Part shown: positions 43,335 to 49,682 of the stretch, in pieces
Layout: every line of letters begins with the position of its first letter
Numbering within the stretch: the stretch's first letter is position 1
From: Atopobacter phocae ATCC BAA-285
GTDB taxonomy: Bacteria; Bacillota; Bacilli; Lactobacillales; Aerococcaceae
Assembly (NCBI RefSeq): GCF_000526675.1
Contig: NZ_JAGN01000004.1
Location: forward strand, 1 to 59,825
Reading direction: 5' to 3'
Length of the DNA: 59,825 nucleotides
The notes under the pieces: generated by a model
Told to the model about the DNA's origin: nothing
Databases searched by the model: none
What the model saw: the letters and a program-made list of their open reading frames with translations, nothing else
Translations under genes and position numbers: made by a program

Positions 43335-43556
43335 TTAAACAATCTCATGTTTTCGTACCGTGAAGTCAGTTGGTAAAAAAATATCATCAACTGATTTCCC
43401 AAAGTGTTCAGCTAACAAAAACATTTCATTTTGCTTGAATTGTGATTTACCCAATTCCTTATTTCTATATCCAGATTCACTAATTTGCAATAAGTTCGCT
43501 AAGTCACCTTGGGTCTCTTTGTTATTTCTTCTTAATTTGATTAGATTCCACTGCAA
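43335..43556 (-). CDS. Cro-like XRE repressor
   Basis: 73 aa, TTG start after GGGGAGGTGATATC. HTH: LIKLRRNNKETQGDLANLLQISESGYRNKELGKSQFKQNEMFLLAEHFGKSVDDIFLP. First gene of the leftward early operon, divergent from the CI-type gene. Would repress lysogeny and tune early transcription. Confidence 0.85.
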   Translation of the reverse strand: MQWNLIKLRRNNKETQGDLANLLQISESGYRNKELGKSQFKQNEMFLLAEHFGKSVDDIFLPTDFTVRKHEIV

Positions 43557-43706: not shown

Positions 43707-44375
43707 ATGAAAAATATAGAAAGAGAATTAGCTGTTTATTCGGGTAATATAATTAGAAAATATAGGAAAGAACTCAATATGACTCAACAGGAATTAGGGG
43801 AAAAAGTTGGAGTAAGCAACTCTGCAATAGCAAATTATGAAAAAGGGTTTAGAGCACCATTACAGGATACTCTTTTTAAACTAGCTGATGTTTTTAACGT
43901 CTCAATAAATGAGTTTTTTCCAAACACAGAAAAGAATAACGAATTAGACATAATGTACATATACAACCAACTTGAACAAACACGTCAAGAAACAGTTTAT
44001 AATTTCGCTGAACACCAACTTGAACAGCAACAACTTGAAGAAACTAAAGGAATATACGTTGTTGGGCAAACCGCTGCAGGTATTCCAATCGAGGGAGAAC
44101 AACCGATACCGCTTTTAGGTGCCGTTACAGTCAATTTACTTGTCAATGGCGATAGCATGGAACCAGTTTTCTATGATGGAGATATTGTGGAATACAAACC
44201 GCAACCTACTTTGGAAAATGGAGAAATAGGCGTTTTTGCAGTAAATGGTGGTATTACACTGAAGAAGTTTAGAATTAATGGCGATGTCCGTTTACAATCG
44301 TTAAATAATAAATACGAAGATCTTATTATCAAAGAATCAGACGATTTTAACATTTTAGGGAAAGTGATTTTATAA
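43707..44375 (+). CDS. CI-type repressor, XRE HTH + S24 peptidase
   Basis: 222 aa master lysogeny repressor. HTH at about 16-70 (RKYRKELNMTQQELGEKVGVSNSAIANYEKG). LexA-like C-terminal domain: predicted self-cleavage at A124-G125 (QTAAGIPI), nucleophile S150 (NGDSMEP), lysine K186/K187 (ITLKKF). RecA filaments would trigger cleavage and induction. AAAGGGGTGAGATT before the ATG; operators O1/O2 immediately upstream. Confidence 0.93.
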   Translation: MKNIERELAVYSGNIIRKYRKELNMTQQELGEKVGVSNSAIANYEKGFRAPLQDTLFKLADVFNVSINEFFPNTEKNNELDIMYIYNQLEQTRQETVYNFAEHQLEQQQLEETKGIYVVGQTAAGIPIEGEQPIPLLGAVTVNLLVNGDSMEPVFYDGDIVEYKPQPTLENGEIGVFAVNGGITLKKFRINGDVRLQSLNNKYEDLIIKESDDFNILGKVIL

Positions 44376-44397
44376 TTTGGGATTGGAGATAGTTGAA

Positions 44398-45390
44398 ATG
44401 AACTTTGACTTGAAAGCTTTCATTGAAAATGCAATTAAAATAACACATGATAAATTGAAAAAAGACAATTCTTTAAAGAGTGACTATAAAAATAAACAAA
44501 ATCAAATTGAAGTTAGGCGTACCAGATCAAGAATCGCTTATAATTATATTAAAGTAAATAAATTCAAAAATAATATAACAGTAATTGACTTTGAAACTAC
44601 TGGTTTGAGTCCAATAAATGATGAGATTATTCAAATTGGAGCTATCAAATACCAAGATGGTATCATTGTTGATACTTTCGATAGGCTAGTTAAACCATCT
44701 GGAAATGTTAGCCCTAAAATCGAAAAATTAACTGGAATTACTAATAAAATGTTAGAAAGCGCTCTACCAATTTCAGATCATCTTGAAGATTTATATTCAT
44801 TCATTCAAGGCGAAACATTAGTAGCACACAACGCTGATTTTGACATGAAATTTTTACTTGAAAATTTTGAAAACTATCAAATTAAACATGAAAACTTTGA
44901 AGTTATTGATACCTTAATATTGGCAAGAAAATTAATTCATGATACAAAAAATCATAAGTTAACCACTTTAAAAGAATATTTAAACATAGAAGCTCAATCA
45001 CACAATGCATTAGAAGATTGTAGAGTTACTGGAGATCTATATTATTATCTAAAAAAAATTGAGGATAATAAACCAGGTAATTACGATGGCGAGCATTATA
45101 CACATTATGTAGAAACCATTAAAGAAATGAAAAGAAATAAAGAAAACAAAAACGCTATCGATTTATTATTGAATTTAGTTGATGCTGTAGAAGCTGAATC
45201 TCGTTTTGAACAAACTGGCCCTGCACCATGGTATTATGAACAACTGGCTATTTTGTACAGAAAAGAAAAAGATAAGCGAAGTGAAATTAAAATTTTAGAA
45301 AGATATTTTTCTTTTTGTGAGATATATGGAGGCCCAAACGGAGTAACACACGAAAAATTAATTGAACGATATAGCAAATTAATTGGATAA
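44398..45390 (+). CDS. DEDDh 3'-5' exonuclease with C-terminal helical domain
   Basis: 330 aa; ATG 44398 behind GGAG is preferred to TTG 44377. DnaQ/PolC-type exonuclease: Exo I VIDFETTG (D64, E66), Exo II HNADFD (D147/D149), Exo III HNALEDC (H202, D207). An N-terminal basic extension (1-58) and a C-terminal ~100-residue helical region (MKRNKENKNAIDLLLNLVDAVEAESR) flank the domain. Follows the repressor in the same orientation, so expressed in the lysogen. May be a defence or host-fitness gene. Confidence 0.86.
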   Translation: MNFDLKAFIENAIKITHDKLKKDNSLKSDYKNKQNQIEVRRTRSRIAYNYIKVNKFKNNITVIDFETTGLSPINDEIIQIGAIKYQDGIIVDTFDRLVKPSGNVSPKIEKLTGITNKMLESALPISDHLEDLYSFIQGETLVAHNADFDMKFLLENFENYQIKHENFEVIDTLILARKLIHDTKNHKLTTLKEYLNIEAQSHNALEDCRVTGDLYYYLKKIEDNKPGNYDGEHYTHYVETIKEMKRNKENKNAIDLLLNLVDAVEAESRFEQTGPAPWYYEQLAILYRKEKDKRSEIKILERYFSFCEIYGGPNGVTHEKLIERYSKLIG

Positions 45391-45421
45391 AGTCACACTT
45401 TCTCATCCGCCAAGATAGTTA

Positions 45422-45514
45422 AATGATCACGACGAAAATGGGGAACGGTTATATCCAGATTTTTATGCGGATGAAAAAGACGATTTATATATAATAGGAA
45501 AAGTTATGATTTAA
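45422..45514 (+). pseudogene. remnant of a second repressor gene (S24 C-terminal tail)
   Basis: In one frame this stretch reads ...ENGERLYPDFYADEKDDLYIIGKVMI then TAA. That is the typical end of CI/S24 repressors; compare this phage's own DDFNILGKVIL. It has no start and is preceded by an in-frame TAG. It lies 7 codons after the exonuclease stop and abuts the ribosome site of the HIRAN gene. A scar of module exchange. Confidence 0.72.
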
Positions 45515-45526
45515 GGAGGATAAATA

Positions 45527-46339
45527 ATGGATAACTATGTACACTATAAACCTGATTTTTTTCAGAAGTATTTTTTAGTATACGATGAAGAAACATATCA
45601 GATTGTTTCTAGTCAAAAAGAAGTTGCTAAACAACTACAATCAAAATTAAATAAAAAATTTTTTAAAACAAAATCAGTGAAAGAACAATTAAGTTTGATA
45701 GAAAGAGATTTACTAGCAATGGAAGAATCTCTATCACAGTATGAATCTGATATAAAAAGAAGTGAATACCTTGAACAATTTATTGTTTATAAAAAATCGT
45801 TCTACGTTAAAGGTACAACCTTTAGTGAACACTTTAATGAAGTTGTTAAAAAGATTATTGAAGAGACTAGCTTTAGCGCATTTGAAGGCATGACTAATAA
45901 AGAGATTGAAGAAGACGGTGGGAAAATATATAAACACACTGGATATACAAGAAAATTCCGTTTAGAAAGTGAGCCGGACAACCCACATGATAAAAATGCT
46001 ATCGCAGTTTTTATTGACAATATGCACGTTGGTTACGTTCCGAAAGAGATAGCTAAAGAAATCCAGCATTTACTAAATGAAAGATACGAATTATCAGGAA
46101 TAACTGAACTCGTCGGCGGTCCTTATAAAGAGTATGATTACAGTAAGGACAAAGTTGTTACCACTAAAAATAACTACGGTTTAAAAATGGATATCGCAAT
46201 AAGAGACACTTTTAAAAACGTAGACGGAAAAGAAGAATTATTAAATCTATATAACGAGATTGAAAAAGGTTATAAACAAGGTCATTTTAGTAAAGAATTC
46301 TATGAAAAAATGATGAAACAAAAGAACGAATTAATTTAA
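45527..46339 (+). CDS. HIRAN-domain protein
   Basis: 270 aa, AAGGAGGATAAATA before the ATG. N-terminal ~120 residues are charged, helical and coiled (SVKEQLSLIERDLLAMEESLSQYESD). A HIRAN domain at about 134-195 has ESEPDNPHDKNAIAVFIDNMHVGYVPKEIAKEI with the conserved D-P-x-N-P-x-D-x-N-A and VGYxP motifs. HIRAN domains bind 3' ends of single-stranded DNA in Rad5/HLTF proteins; here it stands alone, next to an exonuclease gene. Lysogeny cluster; function in phage unknown. The 256 bp after it contain no gene. Confidence 0.82.
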   Translation: MDNYVHYKPDFFQKYFLVYDEETYQIVSSQKEVAKQLQSKLNKKFFKTKSVKEQLSLIERDLLAMEESLSQYESDIKRSEYLEQFIVYKKSFYVKGTTFSEHFNEVVKKIIEETSFSAFEGMTNKEIEEDGGKIYKHTGYTRKFRLESEPDNPHDKNAIAVFIDNMHVGYVPKEIAKEIQHLLNERYELSGITELVGGPYKEYDYSKDKVVTTKNNYGLKMDIAIRDTFKNVDGKEELLNLYNEIEKGYKQGHFSKEFYEKMMKQKNELI

Positions 46340-46595
46340 AGGTGTACTGATTGAGACATTCTAATTGAAATAAACTTTTAAATAATAACGAAGCAAACCA
46401 CGTTTTCACTTCACTACAGTCATTTATTTTGAAGTATATGCTGTTTTACTTCAAAAGAAAACCAACTATTGTGAATTTCCCAATAGTTAAAACAAAAACC
46501 CTACTCTCTCAATCGGGGCGTCAATTTTGTTGGTATGTTAATGAATAATTATATGATGAATAAGTAAAAATGTATAAAGCAAAGGAGGAATTATA

Positions 46596-46961
46596 ATGAA
46601 CGAATTATCAAGCAAACTAACTTGGACGTTTTTAGAAGAAATAGAAACACCAAAAATCATTAAGGATTTATTATTAGAAGATGAACTTGTTGTTTCATCA
46701 TACAAAACTTTACGCGATACGGCATCGTTTACCAATAAAAGAATTATCGTAATAGATTCTCAAGGTATAACTGGAAAGAAAAAAGAAATATACAGTCTTC
46801 CATACCAATCAGTAAACATGTGGTCAACTGAAAATGCTGGAACCTTAGATCTTAATTCTGAAGTTGAACTTTGGACAAGAGCTGGGAACATAAAAATAAA
46901 GCTTGGTAGACAAGTTGATGTGAGACAATTTGAAGGTATTTTAGCTAGAGCTTGTTTATAA
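46596..46961 (+). CDS. PH-domain (bPH_1) protein
   Basis: 121 aa, AAAGGAGGAATTATA before ATG, promoter-like TTGGTA-16-TATGAT upstream. LLLEDELVVSSYKTLRDTASFTNKRIIVIDSQGITGKKKEIYSLPYQSVNMWSTENAG is a bacterial PH domain (PF08000 type). Such proteins are frequent in prophage lysogeny modules; role unknown. Likely cotranscribed with the RexA-like gene 39 bp downstream. Confidence 0.85.
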   Translation: MNELSSKLTWTFLEEIETPKIIKDLLLEDELVVSSYKTLRDTASFTNKRIIVIDSQGITGKKKEIYSLPYQSVNMWSTENAGTLDLNSEVELWTRAGNIKIKLGRQVDVRQFEGILARACL

Positions 46962-47000: not shown

Positions 47001-47834
47001 GTGAGAAGAACATTACTCTATTACGATTTAATTTTAAAAGAGTCAAATCAAATGAAGCTATTTGGTGAGGGAAAAAATTTAACAAATTCAGTGAAAAGAT
47101 TTATAAACGATGAAATAGCAATGAAATCAGAGCGTCGATATGTTGATAAATCAACAATGTCTATTTTTGAAATTTTAAACATCAGTGAAAATCATATTTT
47201 TGTTAGTTACGGTCGTCTAGAAAGACCAGGTGATACTGCATTCACTAGGTCAAGAAACTCTAAAGACTTTGACGTAGGGATTTCATCAGATTGGGTTGAA
47301 AGGTACACATATTTTTATCTCGATATCGAGAATAATCGCATGACCGTATTAAATAATTCGAATGTAACAGGGTTTGCAAGAAATTGCGCTACATTCCTAA
47401 ATGCTCATTTTCGTCTGAGTTCTGCGTACGATGATGTACAAGTTGTAATTCATTTGGATGAAAAGATTGAAGAAAAAATAAACAAAAATCAGAGTATTAC
47501 AAAAATAAAAGTCACATATTCTTCAGATAAGTTATATACTAATAGATTTTTAAGCAGAAAAAAACTAGAACACATAAGGCAAGATGATTTAAGAAGCGCT
47601 ACCGTTGAGCTTAAATTCAAGCCTAATGCTCCAGTTAATTATAAAGATATTGTATTTAATGAAAATAATACAATAGAAGACTATGAGAGCTTATCGATTT
47701 CGACTGAAGAAGAAACTTATAACATTATCGAAAAAAGCATAGCTAAAAAAATAGATATAACACTTTCTTCAGATGATATTAGAAACGCTAACATTATAGA
47801 AGACACATTAAAAAAACACTTGCAAGACTATTAA
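47001..47834 (+). CDS. RexA-like protein (abortive-infection candidate)
   Basis: 277 aa, GTG start behind AAGGAGGTG. Size equals lambda RexA (279 aa). From memory of the lambda sequence, short blocks can be aligned: TGFAR (123-127) with IGFAR, and KDIVFN (215-220) followed by an acidic stretch with KDIIFN of RexA. It faces a 149-aa four-helix membrane protein with RexB-like features. In lambda RexA senses an incoming phage DNA-protein complex and opens the RexB channel. Homology here is an inference from size, context and short motifs; otherwise the protein is unrecognised. Confidence 0.6.
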   Translation: MRRTLLYYDLILKESNQMKLFGEGKNLTNSVKRFINDEIAMKSERRYVDKSTMSIFEILNISENHIFVSYGRLERPGDTAFTRSRNSKDFDVGISSDWVERYTYFYLDIENNRMTVLNNSNVTGFARNCATFLNAHFRLSSAYDDVQVVIHLDEKIEEKINKNQSITKIKVTYSSDKLYTNRFLSRKKLEHIRQDDLRSATVELKFKPNAPVNYKDIVFNENNTIEDYESLSISTEEETYNIIEKSIAKKIDITLSSDDIRNANIIEDTLKKHLQDY

Positions 47835-47838
47835 CTTT

Positions 47839-48288
47839 TTATTCGCCAGGATCTGACATAACAAACAAAGTAACATTATAAAAATAATAAATCAGAATAA
47901 ATGTTTCTGTGATTGCAATTAGTAGTAAATACAGTCGTTGAATGGAATCCAGATTTGTAATAGATAAAACAATTAATAATAACGAACTCAATATTCCTAT
48001 TACTAAAGTTCTGGAAATTATTTTATCATAGCCATAATGTTTCATTAGCTTTCGCGATTGATTGTCAGGTAATGTAACATACAGTCCTAAAATAGTAAAT
48101 AATGTTCCAAACAAAATTGACGATATTTCAAGAGTATGCTTATCAACTAATTCCAAATTAAATAGATTTATTTCTAATAATTTAGTTGCCGTAAAATAAA
48201 GAGAGATAACAATGGTGGGCAAAATTAAATAGATATACAAATTAAAGTGTTCATATATTTCTTCTCTTAAAGCACTAAAAGAATCCAT
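47839..48288 (-). CDS. RexB-like four-helix membrane protein
   Basis: 149 aa (lambda RexB is 144). Helices at about 17-37, 54-73, 90-111 and 118-143. The loop between TM2 and TM3 is basic with RKLMKHYGY (79-87), which lines up with RRLAKIREYGY in lambda RexB as I recall it; TM4 ends FYNVT where RexB has LYNLT. GGGAGGGATAATCA before ATG. Convergent with the RexA-like gene (4-bp gap), not in one operon as in lambda. A structured RNA with terminator lies just upstream on the same strand. Confidence 0.6.
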   Translation of the reverse strand: MDSFSALREEIYEHFNLYIYLILPTIVISLYFTATKLLEINLFNLELVDKHTLEISSILFGTLFTILGLYVTLPDNQSRKLMKHYGYDKIISRTLVIGILSSLLLIVLSITNLDSIQRLYLLLIAITETFILIYYFYNVTLFVMSDPGE

Positions 48289-48319: not shown

Positions 48320-48418
48320 ATCGTTAAAAAAGATAACCCCAGGCACATAGGAATGCTCAGCACAAATGTACCTACCCCATTATGGGACCCAGCGTTCATC
48401 CTTCACAAGTTATCTTTA
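48320..48418 (-). ncRNA. structured RNA upstream of the RexB-like gene, about 98 nt
   Basis: On the minus strand TATAAT (48424-48429) is followed by a segment closed by a perfect 9-bp stem AAAGATAAC (48409-48417) / GTTATCTTT (48329-48337) running into TTTAA, so the closing stem doubles as terminator. Inside are CCCAUAAUGGG and GGUACAU...AUGUGCC hairpins. G+C is high for the locus. It is either an independent small RNA or an attenuating leader of the gene starting at 48288. A Lactobacillales motif reported near phage integrases (Lacto-int) exists; I cannot tell if this is it. Confidence 0.65.
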
Positions 48419-48465: not shown

Positions 48466-48498
48466 AAAAAACAAAAAACCCCACTCTGTCGAGTGGGG
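48466..48498 (-). terminator. strong leftward terminator upstream of the integrase
   Basis: CCCCACTC / GAGTGGGG perfect 8-bp stem, UGUC/GACA loop, then GTTTTTTGTTTTTT on the minus strand. It would stop antisense transcription coming from the integrase side before it enters the rexB-like unit. Confidence 0.75.
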
Positions 48499-48542: not shown

Positions 48543-49682
48543 ATGATAAAACAATATGAATTAAAAAACGGCGAAAAACGTTATTTATTCCAAACCTATT
48601 TAGGTGTTGACCCACAAACTGGGAAACAACGTCGCACGACTCGTCGTGGATTTAAAACAGAACGTGAAGCCAAATTAGCCGAAGCACGTCTCCTCCACGA
48701 AATTGAAACACAAGGGTTTGACAACAAACCCAAGCAAGTGAAATTTGAGGTGGTGCTTGGAAAATGGTTTGAGTTGCATAAAAAGAAACTTAAACCCAGT
48801 TCTATTATAAATTACGAGAGAGATTCTAACAATCATGTCTTACTTTATTTTAAGGGTAAATACGTTGACAAAATAACAGTGGATGATTGTCAAAAGTTTG
48901 TTGTGAATATGTATGATAAAATGACGAACGGTTATAGGCCGGTTGGGATTGCCTCAAAAGTAATGGACCACGCAATCAGACTTGGATATATAAAATCAAA
49001 TCCTTTTAAATTAGCTGTTAGACCACCAAAATTAAAAACGGACTATACTGTGCCTTTTATGGACAGAAAAGAATTTAATAAATTTATTTACGATTTACAC
49101 AAATCATCACTTAGTACTCAAAACAAAATAATGATACATTTAATTGCGTTTACAGGCATGCGAAAAAACGAAGCGGCAGCATTAATGTGGAAAGATGTTG
49201 ATTTAAATAACAATTTAATCAAAATAGAAAGAAATGTTGCTAAAGATAGAGTTGGATATTATATTTCCGAACCTAAAACTAAAGCTGGAATTCGAACGAT
49301 TGCTATCGATAAAGAAACAATAGATTTGTTAAAGAAATGGAAAATAAAACAAATGGAGATACTTTTTAGTCGCGGACAAAAACACAAAGGACAAGAACAG
49401 CTGTTGTTTGCTAACAGAAATAACTCGTTTGTTTGCAGAAGGATTGTTAATGATTTGTTAGATCGAATGACGAACGAAATGAACATAAAAAGGATAACGC
49501 CCCATTCGCTCAGGCATACACACGCCTCTCTTTTGCTAGAAGCAGGTGCATCTATCAAAGAAGTGCAAGACAGACTAGGTCACAAGGATATCAAAACAAC
49601 AATGGATACATATGCTCACGTAACAACGGACGGAAAAGAAAAAACAGTTAATCAATTTATTGCGTTTGTATCAAATGGTTAA
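48543..49682 (+). CDS. int: tyrosine-recombinase phage integrase
   Basis: 379 aa. N-terminal arm-binding domain (1-60, YLFQTYLGVDPQTGKQRRTTRRGFKT), SAM-like core-binding domain (70-160) and catalytic domain with R207 (TGMRKNE), K247 region, H321-x-x-R324 (HSLRH), H347 (LGHKD) and nucleophile Y357 (DTYAHV). GAGAGGAAAGATTAAAA before the ATG. The stop lies 1 bp before attR, so attP was adjacent to int. Catalyses integration and, with an excisionase, excision. Confidence 0.96.
   Translation: MIKQYELKNGEKRYLFQTYLGVDPQTGKQRRTTRRGFKTEREAKLAEARLLHEIETQGFDNKPKQVKFEVVLGKWFELHKKKLKPSSIINYERDSNNHVLLYFKGKYVDKITVDDCQKFVVNMYDKMTNGYRPVGIASKVMDHAIRLGYIKSNPFKLAVRPPKLKTDYTVPFMDRKEFNKFIYDLHKSSLSTQNKIMIHLIAFTGMRKNEAAALMWKDVDLNNNLIKIERNVAKDRVGYYISEPKTKAGIRTIAIDKETIDLLKKWKIKQMEILFSRGQKHKGQEQLLFANRNNSFVCRRIVNDLLDRMTNEMNIKRITPHSLRHTHASLLLEAGASIKEVQDRLGHKDIKTTMDTYAHVTTDGKEKTVNQFIAFVSNG

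Follow-up and report, generated by a model that had tools for sequence, protein, structure and literature searches.

Genes A and B, which lie tail to tail in a prophage of Atopobacter phocae ATCC BAA-285, are a RexAB-like system and part of a broader family in Bacillota. They probably work as a prophage-encoded anti-phage pair with a lambda-like chain of events, A doing the sensing and B permeabilising the membrane. The stretch analysed (hereafter the window) comprised positions 1-59,825 of contig NZ_JAGN01000004.1, from a genome of 1.67 Mb. Rex exclusion counts among the earliest phage-defence phenomena to have been recognised. New here are the Bacillota members, the convergent arrangement and the role proposed for DUF6731. 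The Bacillota branches and the two gene arrangements offer natural variation with which the A-B contact, the trigger and the part played by stoichiometry could be located, and they suggest candidate functions for unannotated prophage genes and for DUF6731, a Pfam family without assigned function.

The convergent pair and its prophage setting

All features are listed in Table 1. The positions, sizes, facing orientation and 4-bp gap given by a sequence-only reading of this DNA were recovered as claimed, and so was its contrast between a soluble A (no hydrophobic helix) and a four-helix B; the lengths that it quoted for lambda RexA and RexB (279 and 144 aa) agreed with the fetched sequences. Ribosome-binding sites were identified by eye: aaggaggtg upstream of A and, on the minus strand, gggaggg upstream of B. 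Both genes are AT-richer (GC 0.297 for A and 0.262 for B) than the prophage (0.361), so that the cassette looks like acquired cargo. Neither protein gave a match above noise in Pfam, PHROGs, PADLOC or NCBIfam (best E-values: A, 0.011; B, 0.012), and nothing was matched by tblastn of A against INPHARED phages and PLSDB plasmids, or of B against the phages.

Table 1. Features of the A/B locus and its surroundings in the window
Feature	Position	Strand	Basis
Probable Cro-like helix-turn-helix protein, divergent from repressor	43335..43556	-	ORF; assigned by eye from translation
CI-like repressor (HTH_3 + Peptidase_S24), heads rightward lysogeny module	43707..44375	+	Pfam
DEDDh exonuclease	44377-45390	+	Pfam
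HIRAN protein	45527-46339	+	Pfam
Bacterial PH-domain protein	46596-46961	+	Pfam
A: RexA-fold soluble protein (predicted), 277 aa, GTG start	47001..47834	+	ORF, AlphaFold model, Foldseek, VIA
Gap of 4 bp separating the A and B stop codons	47835..47838		
B: four-helix membrane protein, 149 aa, ATG start	47839..48288	-	ORF, hydrophobic helices, positively charged TM2-TM3 loop
Candidate B promoter TTGTGA-18-CATAAT	48379..48408	-	9/12 consensus match; weak, such sites at chance level
Terminator-like hairpin upstream of B	48479..48498	-	Consensus scan; 1 seen against 0.9 expected in shuffles (chance)
Tyrosine integrase	48543..49682	+	Pfam Phage_integrase 3e-33

The pair is located in the lysogeny module, between the S24 repressor and the integrase. 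Read rightward, the module consists of the repressor, the DEDDh exonuclease, the HIRAN protein, the PH-domain protein and A, followed by the opposed B and then by the integrase, which probably closes the prophage gene set. The sole candidate for an attachment site, a 12-bp repeat (49697/7379), was unconvincing and was dropped. The exonuclease, HIRAN and PH genes (window 44377-46961) are possible extra cargo or defence genes, and weak PADLOC PDC-M03B matches were recorded for the HIRAN protein (best E 1.4e-7).

The separate promoters for A and B that had been read from the sequence were not substantiated: promoter-like sites were at chance level, numbering 16 against 12.8 (sd 3.7) in shuffles. 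No terminator-like site was detected between A and B in the consensus scan. The hairpin upstream of B would, if functional, shield B from leftward read-through. CI-operator-like repeats near B were discarded, having just one 10-mer in common with the switch region.

The A/B pairing is real and conserved. In 295 genomes of the order, A was found in four and B in five, and all four genomes with A carried B adjacent and convergent; the hypergeometric chance of this overlap is 1.6e-8 (hand arithmetic, with adjacency excluded and genomes taken as independent). The relatives belong to Trichococcus patagoniensis, Aerococcus sp. HMSC062A02 and Facklamia languida (approximately 30% identity), and a search of 76 genomes of the family returned the same four and no additional A. 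A fifth convergent pair was found on a viral contig (L015), at 23% identity to the A and 21% to the B of the window. Co-occurrence in related prophages, which had been set as a check on the original claim, was thus seen together with convergence in all five loci of the clade. The coding ends overlap by 18 bp in Trichococcus, 17 bp in Aerococcus and 39 bp in L015; in the window a gap of 4 bp separates them.

As read from translations, an integrase adjoins the pair in Trichococcus, Aerococcus and Facklamia (as two ORFs in Facklamia) and lies one gene beyond B in L015. A repressor-type HTH gene was likewise read upstream in Trichococcus, Aerococcus and Facklamia, the Facklamia A being the gene directly after the repressor; none was seen in the L015 stretch examined. 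The Facklamia languida A (L023:6001-6813) carries one in-frame stop; its convergent B is intact and the adjoining integrase is in two ORFs. Upstream of the convergent pair of L015, an Abi_2 (HEPN-type) gene is present (L015:4151-5239), possibly as part of a prophage defence cluster.

Tandem relatives and the DUF6731 family

One more credible A was obtained from a phylum sample of 398 genomes (L024, E 2e-6). In L024, A shares its strand with an NA37 gene and with a four-helix B. The coordinates of this same-strand arrangement (L024 / L028:7927-10540, genome G329) cover an NdpA-type nucleoid-associated NA37 protein, the RexA-like protein and the four-helix protein, and NA37 may be a third component of the pair at that locus. 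A similar tandem pair was found in an Acetoanaerobium phage: the A match was weak (tblastn E 0.08), and its B matched the profile of the DUF6731 partners described below at E 7.9e-9. The A profile of the convergent clade matched the two tandem relatives at E 9.3e-9. Three other candidates (L025-L027) were dropped as partial matches (E 0.001-0.007) within ORFs of at least 650 aa.

A weak B match in one genome (G039, E 6.6e-5) led to a same-strand DUF6731 gene (PF20505, E 7.4e-61) accompanied by a four-helix phrog_17119 protein (E 3.8e-11). DUF6731 was detected in 5/198 genomes of the order and 2/299 of the phylum, and in all seven the next gene on the same strand encoded a protein of 3-4 helices; in the background, such a neighbour was present at 2 of 115 large soluble genes. 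The partner reached the phrog_17119 threshold in four of the five genomes of the order, to which that search was restricted. Intact DUF6731 A proteins are approximately 280-340 aa long and the order is tandem, A to B. In a sixth genome of the order (G096), the phrog_17119 gene follows one for a 339-aa protein, which the Pfam DUF6731 model missed, and a phrog_17119 match in G025 was dropped, being inside a 563-aa ORF.

Five phage records also matched, and the same layout was seen in 3/3 phages after exclusion of Listeria phage LM 4-14-1 (H50) and a second AP45 record (H48). The ORFs of G187 and Javan1 look identical, and the DUF6731 counts are therefore not wholly independent. The loci with DUF6731 and its partner are L047, L048, L049, L050, L051, L078, L079, L045 and L046. 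Two of the DUF6731 genes are broken: that of G500 (L078/L080) is split in two ORFs and the first part of that of G152 (L049) is in another frame; the downstream four-helix gene is intact in both. The DUF6731 pairs of Javan1 and AP45 (L044, L045) are beside terminase genes, outside any lysogeny module. A scan of viral contigs with DUF6731 returned no relative, and no PF20505 match was obtained for A at E 10, nor for any protein of the genome from which the window was taken.

Structural and profile evidence for the RexAB relationship

The fold of A was modelled with AlphaFold2 without templates (mean pLDDT 72.4, pTM 0.67, with low-confidence loops). The model suggests that A carries the RexA/RdgC two-domain fold: the best Foldseek match in the PDB was lambda RexA (8twq, E 6.8e-6, prob 1.00), followed by E. 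coli RdgC (E 3.1e-5) and by human inner-kinetochore (CCAN) chains (7pkn_N, 2.9e-3; 7r5s_L, 3.6e-3) and CENP-N (6eqt, 0.025). CENP-L/N are presumably the human counterparts of IML3/CHL4. RdgC and the kinetochore proteins IML3/CHL4 are described as relatives of the RexA fold (PMC11077077). VIA-align also ranked RexA first (Z 8.5, 214 residues aligned; next Z 6.2), a modest value on its own, since by the guidance of the aligner Z scores of 7 to 8 are usual even for models that lack a clear match. Structure comparison of A, proposed earlier as a check, thus placed RexA on top and pointed to no other family. The low TM-scores (0.32) and large rmsd (16.7) between the A model and RexA would fit a different domain arrangement; a domain rotation is proposed for RexA in the account of its crystal structure (PMC11077077).

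When viral proteins were searched by structure, A had A0A8S5S8L2 of phage ctylc9 in second place (E 5.2e-10) and B had A0A8S5S8H0, also of ctylc9, in second place (E 0.057, prob 1.00). The two independent searches thus meet in one genome; the first matches belong to two different phages.

The sequence relationship of A to RexA was carried by DUF6731. No PF15969 match was found for A in the Pfam scan, and direct profile comparisons (hhalign) of A scored at shuffle level against lambda RexA and against the actinophage RexA proteins. Lambda RexA and actinophage RexA, which are reported homologues, were also undetected in the same comparison, so the direct approach was underpowered until DUF6731 was added. 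Against the DUF6731 set (8 sequences), the wider A set (7 sequences) gave E 8.5e-6 (score 46.9, 160 columns; shuffle maximum 17.5, reversed 23.8), and the lambda RexA family (4 sequences) gave E 1e-5 (score 44.8, 181 columns; shuffle maximum 22.8). The 7-sequence set held the two tandem relatives, including the Acetoanaerobium protein with its tblastn E of 0.08, and the comparison was therefore rerun with the convergent clade only (5 sequences): the bridge was weaker but held (E 4.5e-4, score 34.8, 149 columns; shuffle maximum 15.0, reversed 21.3). On the B side, the set of 7 matched the DUF6731 partners at E 4.5e-13 (score 83.9; shuffle maximum 14.3, reversed 36.2) and the convergent clade B at E 7e-11. 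Each bridge score exceeded all 30 column shuffles; the E-values refer to single comparisons.

The merged A+DUF6731 profile scored 27.3 over 191 columns against lambda RexA alone; among 150 of the 178 available soluble decoys, the top score was 18.2. Adding the A set to DUF6731 lowered the RexA-family score (35.3, against 43.0 with DUF6731 alone). Searched against single sequences, the DUF6731 profile found the A of L029 (E 2.4e-5) and missed that of the window, and the A profile placed no RexA or DUF6731 protein above decoys. The actinophage RexA proteins showed no link to DUF6731 in profile comparison, and the four actinophage RexA-like proteins had no Pfam match at E 0.1. At the profile level DUF6731 is a homologue of both A and B and is a candidate RexA-like exclusion protein, and the relationship of A to RexA is supported by the fold together with the DUF6731 bridge.

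B is RexB-like by its topology, its loop charge and its partnership with A. Four hydrophobic helices were counted in the B of the window and in 6/6 other B proteins of the set, tandem relatives included; the AlphaFold model is helical (pLDDT 71.8) and the TM2-TM3 loop is positively charged. No PF15968 match was found in the Pfam scan, and lambda RexB was not named among the best 50 BFVD matches of B. The merged B profile scored 24.2 against lambda RexB, the best of 57 membrane decoys scoring 23.6, a margin too narrow to set lambda RexB apart from the decoys. A non-significant BFVD match at rank 23 (E 3.1) was to a Sbash protein of 165 aa, the size of Sbash gp31; among the 77 of 89 Sbash features listed, no other has this length. 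Weak matches to phrog_17119 were recorded for both the B of the window (E 0.027) and lambda RexB (E 0.034), and are treated as a lead only.

The short motifs on which the RexAB comparison had initially been based are all present in both proteins, but they are unequal as evidence and part of them is coincidental. GFAR is not conserved in the A family and, read by hand through the DUF6731 bridge, falls about 10 residues off the lambda GFAR; this match was rejected as coincidental. KDI(V/I)FN is in the same region as its lambda counterpart, but about four residues off by hand reading, and it too is not conserved in the A family. The RexB-side motifs fared better: within the TM2-TM3 loop, YGY lines up in register with lambda RexB and is partly conserved in the B family (KHYGY, KKYNY, QKYGH, RIYKH, KKSGY), and the Y after TM4 aligns with the Y of lambda RexB and is invariant in 5/5. 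The central claim, a diverged RexAB-like pair, is upheld by the fold of A, the 5/5 pairing and the DUF6731 profile bridge, and phage exclusion itself would follow by analogy.

Proposed action and comparison with known RexAB systems

From the relatives we infer lysogenic expression, DNA binding, an A-to-B signal, a membrane effect and exclusion, in the following chain. A would be made in the lysogen, probably off the transcript of the repressor, and would be expected to dimerise on DNA; B would be made from a separate leftward transcript. When another phage infects, A would sense some structure of phage DNA or phage protein and then act on the positively charged cytoplasmic TM2-TM3 loop of B. 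B would permeabilise the membrane, growth would stop and the infection would abort. The anatomy of the locus, with convergent, nearly touching genes, suggests that the levels of A and B would be set separately, and antisense coupling of the two transcripts is possible in the tail-to-tail layout: the genes overlap or nearly touch and no terminator was found between A and B in the consensus scan, so that either transcript could act as antisense to its partner. Rex action depends on the A:B ratio, which would then be self-balancing. A broader proposal, which we rate as less likely than not, places lambda-type RexAB as a single branch within a large and hitherto unrecognised exclusion family of Bacillota temperate phages that includes DUF6731, with tail-to-tail antisense balancing the A:B ratio in the branch described here.

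Other ways of wiring the same genes were considered. The pair could work as described for gp30/gp31 of phage Butters (PMC12894663), which have the same gene content: A would be a toxic or antiviral effector, tethered at the membrane by B until infection releases it. If A and B do have separate promoters, this would be in keeping with a sequestering partner whose expression is independent. In the accounts given for lambda, CarolAnn, Sbash and P. putida, however, both genes are required, the membrane protein is the effector and A triggers (PMC12894663; PMC6426606, PMC6426596, PMC7542560), and the charged loop of B corresponds to one that Sbash gp31 requires for defence; neither point is decisive, and we regard the Butters type of wiring as unlikely. 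Slightly less likely again is a pair that chiefly tunes its own lysis-lysogeny switch, A being a non-specific DNA binder that biases CI/Cro, with exclusion as a side effect. Lambda RexA is described as biasing the CI-Cro switch without RexB (PMC11077077), and A follows the repressor in the same orientation, with no gene between them in Facklamia; against this, the low-GC cassette resembles acquired cargo and the DUF6731 pairs of Javan1 and AP45 are away from any switch region.

Very improbable is a locus in which an RdgC-like A serves in recombination or DNA binding and an unrelated membrane gene, B, hitch-hikes beside it. RdgC is indeed the second-best structural match, and the fold of A is by itself no proof of a Rex role, but B accompanies A in every clade locus, a membrane gene follows DUF6731 in all seven genomes in which it was detected, the gene orders differ, and B is conserved at the family level.

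The RexAB-like reading, with A sensing and B permeabilising, is compared below with what has been described elsewhere. In Gram-positive papers, the name "RexAB" otherwise designates the AddAB nuclease. No RexAB-like system of Bacillota and no mention of DUF6731 was found in the titles and abstract openings of the open-licence papers searched. Only five RexAB-like systems are counted in PMC12894663, in lambda, in Gordonia and Mycobacterium phages and in P. putida, none of these five being in Bacillota; PMC11077077 extends the list by more homologues from actinophages and by RexA homologues of Shewanella and Salinisphaera that are orphans. Stoichiometry is described as important for lambda and as probably important for P. 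putida (PMC12894663).

Lambda RexA and RexB (PF15969/PF15968; PDB 8TWQ) are close in size to A and B, and the two systems share the predicted RexA fold of A, a four-helix partner, a positive TM2-TM3 loop, a nearby CI repressor and the DUF6731 profile link. Unlike the cI-rexA-rexB operon of lambda, the pair of the window is convergent, three genes separate A from the repressor and the host belongs to Bacillota; the convergent layout also departs from the other published RexAB arrangements consulted. The systems of the actinophages CarolAnn (gp44/gp43), Sbash (gp30/gp31), Toast (gp42/gp41) and Butters (gp30/gp31) also consist of a soluble A and a small multi-helix B, but their A proteins are longer (337-403 aa) and have no sequence link to the A of the window, and A and B are in tandem; between the actinophage and window-side B proteins a weak signal was recorded (score 16.5; shuffle maximum 13.7). 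Sbash 30/31 are described as having their own promoter and as not being expressed with the repressor, and a substitution in the TM2-TM3 loop of gp31 is reported to disable defence; the equivalent loop in the B of the window is the positively charged one.

The P. putida system RexABpp (PP_5643-5644) is described as a prophage pair placed after a CI-like repressor with intervening genes, and its RexA was recognised by fold and remote homology and its RexB by topology only, as here (PMC12894663). It differs from the pair of the window in being an operon of a proteobacterium with experimentally shown defence, and the likeness is one of description. Within Bacillota, DUF6731 (PF20505) and its phrog_17119-type protein are profile homologues of A and B but are arranged in tandem. 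The same-strand order typical of RexAB is absent from the convergent loci of the clade (5/5) and present in the related pair of L024.
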